A stretch of 29,969 nucleotides of DNA, taken from IMG/VR virus record IMGVR_UViG_3300043449_000121, positions 1 through 29,969 of that record; one strand, written 5' to 3'. This DNA comes from a virus. A program made the translations under genes and the position numbers. Positions 1,877 to 4,412 of the stretch are shown here, in pieces. Position 1 is the stretch's first letter; the number at the start of each line of letters is the position of its first letter. Under the pieces are notes generated by a model. The model saw only the letters and a program-made list of their open reading frames with translations. It did not search any database and was not told where the DNA came from.

Positions 1877-1905
1877 AAAAGACAGGGTTTTTACCCCTGT
1901 CTTTT
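1876..1905 (-). terminator. Rho-independent terminator after the tail-chaperone gene
   Basis: Perfect 11-bp stem AAAAGACAGGG / CCCTGTCTTTT around a 7-nt loop, followed on the minus strand by TTTTTC. It lies 3 nt past the stop of the frameshift-extended tail-chaperone frame (1909). The A-rich opposite flank means it could also act on the plus strand, but no plus-strand genes are present. Confidence 0.8.
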
Positions 1906-1908
1906 AAA

Positions 1909-2154
1909 TTACTTTTTATTAGCTTCGTCGTATTGCTTTTTTTCGTCTTCAAATTGTTTTGCCAATCTCTTTGTAAACCAATGTCTTAATTGAATTGGAA
2001 GATTGTAAACTTCTATAAAAGACCAACCACCATGATATTTGAGGATAAACATTTCCTCATATATCGATTCGTGATACTTATCGGTTAACCCAAAAAAAGT
2101 CCGCTGTAAACGGCACCTCCATCTCTGTATCAAAGCCACAGAAACGGCACTCAA
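1909..2154 (-). CDS. Frameshift-accessed C-terminal extension of the gp26-like tail chaperone
   Basis: Open frame overlapping the end of the upstream chaperone gene by 77 bp, in the +1 frame relative to it. The frame opens only with TTG (2154), with no SD. The conserved-looking part begins exactly where the two frames meet, at a run of seven T (2092-2098): FFGLTDKYHESIYEEMFILK, then GGWSFIEVYNLPIQLRHWF and a charged helical tail. Sixty residues follow the slip point. The pattern aromatic-xx-YxxPxxLRxFxxxxL resembles small proteins next to the gp26 gene in marine T4-like phages. Most likely it is made as a fusion of about 337 aa by slippage of tRNA-Phe on UUUUUUU, like lambda gpG-T tail chaperones. 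The first in-frame ATG (2052) is inside the domain, with GAGG only 2 nt away, so independent initiation is a weak alternative. Confidence 0.6.
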   Translation of the reverse strand: MSAVSVALIQRWRCRLQRTFFGLTDKYHESIYEEMFILKYHGGWSFIEVYNLPIQLRHWFTKRLAKQFEDEKKQYDEANKK

Positions 2155-2923
2155 ATGAGTTATTGTAAGATACGTTTGGAGTAACCATCTTAACTAATTT
2201 CTTAAAATAAATTGAATCTCTTGCTGGAAGGTTGGCAATTAATTGCTCTACTTGTTGTCTATCTGCCACATCGTTGACAGCTACAATCATTAGTCGAAGA
2301 ACGTCTGTCGCATTTGTTTCATTTTGAACTATAGTTTTTGATGTAAGCTTCTCAACTAGGAATCTTTCTTCACGACCTGTTGGAAGTTTAAATGAAATCT
2401 TGACTTTGCTCATTGGAAGAACAAGATGCATTAATCCGTCTTCTGTTTGTGTTACTCCAAGATTCTCTAAAGCTTCTGTGTCTAGAGCATAATTTACATT
2501 TGGGTTTTGTAAATCAAATGAATATTCTTGTGCTTTTGAACAAGAAGGACAATTAACTTTGGTGTCATAATCTGGGCCATAACCAGAAATTCTTGCTGCA
2601 ACTATAATAGCATTTCTATCACCAATCAATAATGATTCAGTTCTAATTTGCTTATCAATTACCAAGTCAGCAATAAGTTTATCAATTACAACACCTTTTT
2701 TAATAAGACTCTTTGATGTTAAAGTATCTTCATCTTTTGCTGTCATAAAGCGAATTTCAATAGTTTCTTTGCCATGTAGAGGATGATTTGGCGAATAATA
2801 AAGACCTTTGGATGGTAATTCTACATGCTCTGTTGGAACGACGAACGAAAGCCCACCATCTGTCTGTGGGGCTTCTGATTGAGGGAGATGTGCTCCACCC
2901 AATCTATCTTGGTTATTTCTCAT
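2078..2923 (-). CDS. gp26-like baseplate/tail assembly chaperone (T4_baseplate family), zinc-ribbon
   Basis: 281 aa. The N-terminal part carries VPTEHVELPSKGLYY, HPLHGKETIEIRFMTAKDED and LTSKSLIKKG, motifs I recognise from the T4 gp26/gp51-type family of marine T4-like phages. Next come a DRNAIIVAARISGYGPDY segment and four cysteines arranged as CPSC (about residue 125) and CRFC (about residue 262), a probable zinc site. T4 gp26/gp51 help hub and tape-measure assembly, and this position before the tape measure is that of tail chaperones. ATG at 2923 has SD GGAG 6 nt away and abuts the previous stop. The zero-frame product ends ADFFWVNR just after a T7 slippery run; a second frame continues past it (see the extension entry), so two products sharing an N-terminus are expected. 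Confidence 0.72.
   Translation of the reverse strand: MRNNQDRLGGAHLPQSEAPQTDGGLSFVVPTEHVELPSKGLYYSPNHPLHGKETIEIRFMTAKDEDTLTSKSLIKKGVVIDKLIADLVIDKQIRTESLLIGDRNAIIVAARISGYGPDYDTKVNCPSCSKAQEYSFDLQNPNVNYALDTEALENLGVTQTEDGLMHLVLPMSKVKISFKLPTGREERFLVEKLTSKTIVQNETNATDVLRLMIVAVNDVADRQQVEQLIANLPARDSIYFKKLVKMVTPNVSYNNSFECRFCGFDTEMEVPFTADFFWVNR
2092..2098 (-). promoter_or_regulatory. Probable programmed ribosomal frameshift site (T7 run)
   Basis: Zero frame reads GAC TTT TTT TGG GTT AAC CGA TAA. Moving +1 reads TTT TTT GGG TTA ACC GAT and stays open for 60 codons; -1 hits TAA within three codons. Phe-tRNA can re-pair perfectly on UUU after a +1 (or -2) slip. A GGAGGTG sequence lies 17 nt upstream and could act as an internal SD stimulator, although that spacing is longer than usual. 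Confidence 0.6.
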
Positions 2924-3769
2924 TTATACTCCGTGTTTCTTTGGGTCGTCATGCATATACGAGGTATATACTGCCCACATATAACCTATTTGTAAATTAT
3001 ATTCAATAAATGCGTTATCATTTTCGTAATTATTATCACCAAATGATACTTCTTTCAAATAAGGTTCATATAAATTCCACTTACCTACTGGGTATGTTCT
3101 TTGTGTATTTAAGTGTGCTTTGTCAATTGGATTGCCAAAGGTTTGTGTATAGTCGTTTTGTGCTTGACCATTTTCGCCAATTACCGTTCCAACATTGTCG
3201 TAGTCTGGAAGGTAATCGGTCGATAAATCAATTATCTCAAATGGCTCAAACAATAAGCGACTTCTAATCTGCATAGGGTCTTTACCTGCGGCTGCTTTAG
3301 CATCCATGTTAATAGCAGGAAGCCCTATATCAGATACCCTTGATATTCTGTCTGTAGTTGAAAATCTATATCCAGAACCATCAATCAAGAGACTTAATAA
3401 ATAATCTAAATCTTTTGGAACTTCTTGAGGATGAAAAGTGTGAGAACCTACATTTACTAATTTTATACTAATAGGTTCCCATTTATAGTTTTCTGGCTTT
3501 GGAGATTCAAACCCTATGAAGAATCCGTCACCTTCTATATATTTTTTACCTGTATCGATACGAAACTTTGGTCTATCAATAGACTTTACTAACCATGAAT
3601 AGTTTGGAATATTTTTAAATTCATTTCCAAAACCACTACCAGACAAGTTAATATCGTAATTACTTTTAAATACAGCATTATCGCCAAACCTAACCAAAAA
3701 CTTATATTTTGATTTAGGTTTGGCGTTAAAGCTAGACCAGAAATTAAATCTATTATCTCCGGGTGTCAT
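2924..3769 (-). CDS. Second tube-fold tail protein (gp54/gp48-like tube initiator candidate)
   Basis: 281 aa. N-terminus FNFWSSFNAKPKSKYKFLVR parallels the tube protein encoded just upstream (FWSDAGLEPKRKHKFLMF). The C-terminus PYLKEVSFGDNNYENDNAFI parallels the tube protein's AWISKVDMGDVSYDNDNQLS. It is therefore a tube-fold paralogue with an insert of about 75 residues. In T4, gp48 and gp54 are tube-like proteins on which the tube nucleates; a protein like this directly after the tube gene could be that initiator or a second tube or cap subunit. This is inference from internal similarity. The start has no convincing SD (AAGTGATAC before ATG), with a 16-nt gap after the tube gene, so it may depend on translational coupling. 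Confidence 0.6.
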   Translation of the reverse strand: MTPGDNRFNFWSSFNAKPKSKYKFLVRFGDNAVFKSNYDINLSGSGFGNEFKNIPNYSWLVKSIDRPKFRIDTGKKYIEGDGFFIGFESPKPENYKWEPISIKLVNVGSHTFHPQEVPKDLDYLLSLLIDGSGYRFSTTDRISRVSDIGLPAINMDAKAAAGKDPMQIRSRLLFEPFEIIDLSTDYLPDYDNVGTVIGENGQAQNDYTQTFGNPIDKAHLNTQRTYPVGKWNLYEPYLKEVSFGDNNYENDNAFIEYNLQIGYMWAVYTSYMHDDPKKHGV

Positions 3770-3785
3770 GTATCACTTGTTTATA

Positions 3786-4412
3786 TTATCTTGTGCGTCT
3801 TGGTGCGCCAATAGAAGCAATATCAGCATCTGAAGAAATTTGTCTATCTTCTTTGCCTGTAATTGTTCTTCCAGCTTCTTGTTGTTGTAACTCTGCCCAA
3901 TCATAAACAATTGTCAATTTGTATTCTGATAATTGGTTATCGTTATCATAAGATACGTCACCCATATCAACTTTAGAAATCCAAGCGTTCCATAACTGCC
4001 ATTGTTCTACAACGAGTCCCATTTCATCTATTTGTTGAAATATAACTCCACCGCTTAAAGAAGATACAGCACCAGACTTGTCAATAAGTGTCAAAGGTGT
4101 GGCCCCTGCGGAACCGCCCTGTAGGGCGGCTCCTTTTCTTACAGGACTTTGATTACCAGCATCGTTCATAAATTGCATAATTTTTTGAACAATTTGGTCA
4201 TTTTCTGTATCAACAAATGTTACTGTAACATCGTTCCACTTGACACCACCGGGAAACTTGTAGCTATTTCCTAGAAACTTGTGTTCACCAACAGTAATTT
4301 CCATGTTTGGCTTATTAGTTGATTTTACCAAAATAGCTGGTAAATCTCCAACAAACATCAAAAACTTATGCTTTCTCTTTGGTTCTAAACCTGCATCACT
4401 CCAGAATGCCAT
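3786..4412 (-). CDS. Tail tube protein, gp19-like
   Basis: 208 aa, close to T4 gp19 (163 aa) plus a small internal insert. Begins MAFWSDAGLEPKRKHKFLMF, with GGVKWNDVTVTFVDTENDQI and a closing ISKVDMGDVSYDNDNQLSEY-KLTIVYDWA pattern, as in tube proteins of T4-like phages: a beta-rich subunit that stacks as hexamers inside the sheath. A Gly/Ala loop (about 95-107) and a charged C-terminal tail follow. It lies 30 nt after the sheath gene, the canonical 18-19 order. SD GGGAG stands about 9 nt before the ATG, and an ACTATATAATA sequence upstream of the SD may be a promoter variant, as tube is needed in many copies. Confidence 0.82.
   Translation of the reverse strand: MAFWSDAGLEPKRKHKFLMFVGDLPAILVKSTNKPNMEITVGEHKFLGNSYKFPGGVKWNDVTVTFVDTENDQIVQKIMQFMNDAGNQSPVRKGAALQGGSAGATPLTLIDKSGAVSSLSGGVIFQQIDEMGLVVEQWQLWNAWISKVDMGDVSYDNDNQLSEYKLTIVYDWAELQQQEAGRTITGKEDRQISSDADIASIGAPRRTR

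Follow-up and report, generated by a model that had tools for sequence, protein, structure and literature searches.

The stretch analysed here (the window) is an IMG/VR virus record of 29,969 bases, consisting of a single metagenome contig. On its minus strand the genes run in the order terminase, portal, major head protein, tail sheath, tail tube, a second and weak tube-family match, a gp26-like gene, a 116-aa gene and then the beginning of a tape measure gene. Two adjacent genes on this strand (2924-3769 and 3786-4412) show matches to tail tube families (PHROG 4542), weak in the case of the second, and likely represent a duplicated or diverged tube gene. The gp26-like gene is a member of the T4_baseplate family PF12322 (E 1.6e-15; 57.8 bits against a cut-off of 24.5). 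The features found in and around its 3′ end are the following:

2078-2923, minus strand: gp26-like gene, putative short form of a tail assembly chaperone (281 aa); Pfam PF12322 T4_baseplate, PHROG 150 baseplate hub
2115-2120, minus strand: Shine-Dalgarno (SD)-like element GGAGGT, ending 16 nt before the T run
2101-2113, minus strand: possible mini-hairpin CCG(U)...(G)CGG, located 3′ of the SD-like element and 5′ of the slip site, from fold-energy tests in clade A (defined below)
2090-2098, minus strand: candidate slip site TTT TTT TGG (T7 run 2092-2098, TGG 2090-2092); TTT or CTT (or CTA) followed by TGG occurs in nearly all of 239 unique loci
2078-2080, minus strand: zero-frame stop TAA, four codons past the second TTT; a stop lies within a few codons in 239/239 loci
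1909-2091, minus strand: 60-codon +1-frame extension with its stop codon, a gp51/DUF6760-like helical domain according to frame, pN/pS, DUF6760 match and AlphaFold
1877-1905, minus strand: intrinsic terminator 3′ of the extension, an 11-pair stem followed by a T-rich tail

On the minus strand the gene ends in GAG GTG CCG TTT ACA GCG GAC TTT TTT TGG GTT AAC CGA TAA, and from GAC onwards both the sequence and its frames are as described in the initial annotation. Past the shift, the +1 frame reads GGG TTA ACC and continues for 60 codons to a TAA at 1911-1909, so that the predicted fusion has a length of 337 aa (277+60). The -1 frame, as also noted before, is shut immediately (TTG GGT TAA; the stop is at 2085-2087). 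The continuation had been described as devoid of a proper start codon, and indeed its only candidates in the window are TTG, GTG and TTG, 41-62 nt 5′ of the TGG codon, while no ATG precedes the conserved YEEMF block in this frame. The region originally indicated (1909-2154) is the right one; its span, on the other hand, is that of a mechanical open reading frame, the functional extension being 2091-1909. The extension does stop 3 nt before the terminator, as had been claimed. Finally, the two frames do overlap and lie close to the tape measure gene as proposed, but since the 116-aa gene (1513-1863) and the terminator intervene, the extension is near this gene and not adjacent to it.

The homologous loci fall into three clades: clade A is the window's marine type, clade B comprises loci like that of Microcystis phage Mel-JY01, and clade C loci like that of Flavobacterium phage immuto. 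The comparison of homologues called for by the initial annotation places the extension in the +1 frame in 236 of the 239 unique loci, the exceptions being one locus that is cut off and two with the extension in another frame; eight further loci from bacterial assemblies agree with the +1 position. In clade A the pN/pS of the extension is 0.18 in the +1 frame, compared with 1.12 and 2.13 in the remaining two frames. The extension is under purifying selection, and a chance open frame is excluded by these two results. An SD and ATG of its own are not the rule among the homologues: 53 of 234 loci contain no ATG, GTG or TTG between the opening of the +1 frame and 10 codons past the shift, so that an independent start is not general. 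Two huge-phage relatives carry the extension in the -1 frame, LR756511 with a TAATG overlap and Agrobacterium phage Atu_ph07 with a T TTT TTC site. There is also a practical aspect, in that the public annotation of immuto, SP-15, LIS04 and GXN1 shows a fragment ORF or nothing at the +1 extension, and the record of Mel-JY01 gives a separate hypothetical gene.

The slip site is TTT TTT TGG in 184 of the 239 unique loci, TTT CTT TGG in 30, TTC TTT TGG in 9, TTT CTA TGG in 4 and CTT TTT TGG in 3, with a few others; the rarer sites include TTT TTT TAC, and in distant phages TTT is followed by C or A. Overall, a conserved slippery site lies near the end of the first frame, and it has the P-site composition known from prfB, i.e., CUU or UUU followed by U. 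It does not correspond to a standard -1 site (X XXY YYZ), which would call for an extension in the -1 frame. The T7 run is present in 179/231 loci, whereas the longest T run is only 3 or 4 in 46/231, and at least nine changes between T7 and an interrupted run are seen on the tree. The Phe codon before TGG is TTT in 56/56 cases, compared with 30% TTC among Phe codons elsewhere; part of this constraint on the junction codons is due to dual coding. Across all clades, a T immediately precedes TTTTTT in a single one of the 183 representatives, which looks like avoidance of a -1-prone T TTT TTT or of a T8 run. In addition, 195/231 loci have a -1-frame stop 11 nt past the T that opens the slip site, and it comes with a biased Leu codon (CTA/CTG). 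Backward-slipping ribosomes may be caught by such a stop, or its position may simply follow from the zero-frame residue; the pattern is real, but because of this confounding it was not used as evidence.

Within the clade A gene, synonymous constraint peaks in the codons just 5′ of and at the slip site, where two features, overlooked in the initial annotation, lie a short way upstream of the T run. The SD-like element GGAGGU is shared by 82 of the 83 clade A representatives. Its duplex with the 16S anti-SD has a mean energy of about -8.7 kcal in this clade, compared with -4.5 in synonymous shuffles (z about -16), and the Glu codon within it is GAG in 69/69 cases. In 13 of the clade A representatives the element is shifted upstream by 6-7 nt, and its register has changed at least four times on the tree. 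The element is under synonymous-site selection in clade A. SD-like motifs also occur in 76% and 65% of the representatives of clades B and C, respectively, at other positions. An apparent tracking of interrupted slip sites by SD presence in clade C was dropped, the cases not being independent on the tree.

The second feature is a probable mini-hairpin, which in the window has the sequence CCGUUUACAGCGG. In clade A its mean energy is -4.5 kcal, compared with -0.7 kcal in synonymous shuffles (z -24), and the signal persists when synonymous codons are permuted within columns (z -8.7), a procedure that leaves relatedness in. The register of the hairpin varies among clade A loci, a fixed-register count reveals no covariation excess, and RNAalifold predicts nothing in the hairpin region; given these results and the residual relatedness, the hairpin in clade A is probable. 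Column permutation, applied to the last six codons, gives no clear support for it in clades B and C. The sole clade A representative without the SD-like element (locus L119, 3293-3331) also lacks the predicted hairpin; it keeps TTT TTT TGG and the +1 extension. According to work with an E. coli 70S system (PMC6321510), +1 frameshifting is stimulated, and -1 frameshifting damped, by an internal SD and likewise by a hairpin located upstream, adjacent to the E site. Our element sits farther from the slip site than in that system; with the hairpin looped out, about 6 nt would be left between the SD-like element and the P-site codon.

The likely nature of the products was approached by modelling and profile searches. 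The short form and the extension were folded apart with AlphaFold and reached pLDDT values of 90.5 (gp26-like half) and 92.3 (extension), the latter consisting of three helices. Chains of the HK97 tail assembly chaperone 2ob9 take ranks 1 and 2 among PDB chains, with non-significant E values of 0.26 and 0.62. Likewise, gp51 of Prochlorococcus phage P-HM1 is among the viral fold matches of the extension (probability 1.00, TM 0.74/0.85), with a non-significant E of 0.15. The match of the extension to DUF6760 (PF20546) scores 23.4 bits (E 6.3e-5), below the cut-off of 27. A search for DUF6760 in the control genomes and in three of the four bacterial assemblies returned nothing; the fourth gave just the phage locus itself, and a link to contractile injection systems is thus not established. 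T4 gp26 and T4 gp51 are mutually related (BLASTP E 2e-6), and the C-terminus of T4 gp51 has no significant match to the extension profile. In named phages the order tube, gp26-like gene, tape measure recurs. Gene order, the gp26/gp51 relation and the weak HK97 fold match point to a tail assembly chaperone pair, and the layout is that of the G/GT type, with overlapping frames, the second without its own start, near the tape measure gene.

How the extension is reached can be judged mainly from the variants of the slip site, and the pairing arguments together favour +1 ribosomal frameshifting. At TTC TTT TGG a +1 slip would re-pair fully, and TTT CTT TGG offers the CUU-to-UUU slip that is known from prfB. 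The few sites with CTA would require slipping at the UUU before it (UUU to UUC). The initial annotation had allowed for either a +1 or a -2 slip, and of these it is the +1 that the data favour. A -2 shift, as in phage Mu, would lead to the same frame with one extra residue (ADFFFGLTDK instead of ADFFGLTDK). The tRNA could re-pair after such a shift at U7, and arguably also at TTT CTT TGG, and backward slips with an SD some 10-16 nt upstream are on record (PMC6321510). However, at the nine TTC TTT TGG loci a slip by -2 would put tRNA-Phe on UCU, whereas +1 re-pairs in all common variants, and upstream hairpins are reported to hinder backward movement (PMC6321510), which makes a -2 shift very unlikely. 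Slippage of RNA polymerase, helped by the nascent hairpin, would produce from the U7 stretch some mRNAs with one U fewer or two more, from which ordinary translation would yield the fusion. The prevalence of T7, the resemblance of the hairpin and T run to a weak terminator (2113-2101 was flagged as such) and the near absence of a T before TTTTTT are all compatible with it. Nevertheless, the loci with only 3-4 T keep the +1 extension and the two states have interchanged repeatedly on the tree, so polymerase slippage is not the shared mechanism; furthermore, it would leave the SD-like element without a role. We consider its probability to be only slight.

The frames could also belong to two separate genes, the extension being self-started or translationally coupled, like the small gp51 of cyanophages, so that no fusion would arise. 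Some records do annotate a separate small gene after gp26, the junction of LR756511 reads TAATG, and in many members an ATG lies some 19 nt beyond the first base of the TGG codon. This ATG is not conserved, however, and besides the loci devoid of any start codon, no start codon is suitably spaced from the SD-like element, while the conserved junction FFGL makes sense only if the junction is translated; two independent genes thus appear quite improbable. Least probable of all, to a degree that we regard as negligible, is an artefact, i.e., a miscounted homopolymer or a decayed gene end. The window is indeed a single metagenome contig, and the initial annotation had asked for a sequencing error to be ruled out; yet identical frames recur in 236 independent loci under purifying selection, and the extension is also kept where no run exceeds 4 T. 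A sequencing error in the T7 run is accordingly rejected.

Taken as a whole, +1 ribosomal frameshifting that yields a short and a long chaperone with the aid of upstream stimulators is the best explanation, and we assign it a probability of about 0.84. What we infer from the sequence, namely the expression of the two forms, their ratio, the function of the stimulators and the chaperone role, would fit together as follows. Most ribosomes would decode GAC UUU UUU UGG GUU AAC CGA UAA and release the short 281-aa chaperone. In a minority, with tRNA-Phe on the P-site UUU and UGG (Trp) waiting in the A site, the tRNA would slip one base forward, from UUU to UUU; the A-site pause is assumed here, UGG being a sense codon. 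The slipped ribosomes would read GGG UUA ACC and so forth, producing the 337-aa form with the helical gp51-type domain. GGAGGU and the small hairpin refolding behind the ribosome could favour the +1 movement, a part played in prfB by the SD duplex, although the prfB SD abuts the E-site codon, whereas the distance of 16 nt to the T run speaks against such a likeness. The two forms might then act jointly, as lambda gpG and gpGT do, in loading the tape measure protein and recruiting tube subunits. A more specific proposal is that the SD-like element, a mini-hairpin that stands in for the SD:anti-SD duplex or brings it close, and U UUU UGG make up a composite +1 signal, old and widespread in a large, mostly uncultured T4-type branch; we put this forward tentatively, as nearly an even call that leans slightly to the negative. 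No description of such a composite signal with SD, mini-hairpin and sense codon was found in the literature searched.

The comparative evidence supports the original reading of this gp26-type tail chaperone gene, in which translation is programmed to move into the +1 frame: as far as sequence evidence goes, the conserved +1-frame extension of this phage tail gene is confirmed as a real finding, soundly interpreted. The scale of the conservation, the firm +1 direction, and the SD-like element with its probable hairpin are new here. For the +1 branch this holds unless it is already contained in Vladimirov et al. (2022), who, as cited in PMC10885494 and PMC12846349, identified T4-type chaperone genes. 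Depending on the branch, the gp26 family has separate genes, a -1-frame extension or a +1-frame extension, so a single protein family seems to have switched the direction of its programmed shift. The +1 signal, which would act at a sense codon, is conserved enough for mechanistic testing, and the SD-like element suggests use at a distance.

Frameshifting of tail chaperone genes is common among long-tailed phages; shifts of -1, -2 and +1 are all recorded, and T4 is named as the exception (2016 review, PMC5009743). As in lambda G/GT, P2 E/E′ and Mu, the overlapping frames lie between tube and tape measure genes and would provide a short form plus a minor, C-terminally extended one; lambda and P2, however, shift by -1 and Mu by -2, whereas here the shift is +1, the gene family is PF12322, and an SD-like element and a hairpin are located upstream. 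T4 gp26 and gp51 belong to the same protein family, but in T4 they are separate, divergent genes, while in the T4-type phages Sf-FS3, IC12, RL38J1, phiAS5 and Cygsa01 it is the -1 frame that carries the extension. Further +1 cases among phage structural or tail chaperone genes are Listeria phage PSA and, probably, the haloarchaeal myovirus HSTV-2 (PMC5009743); unlike the locus described here, PSA slips on the proline codon CCC, in its capsid and tail-shaft genes (PMC5009743). Finally, prfB (RF2) shares with our locus CUU or UUU followed by U, the forward slip and the upstream SD, and differs from it by a stop codon in the A site, where we find UGG, and by the spacing of the SD, which in our case leaves room for a possible hairpin before the T run.
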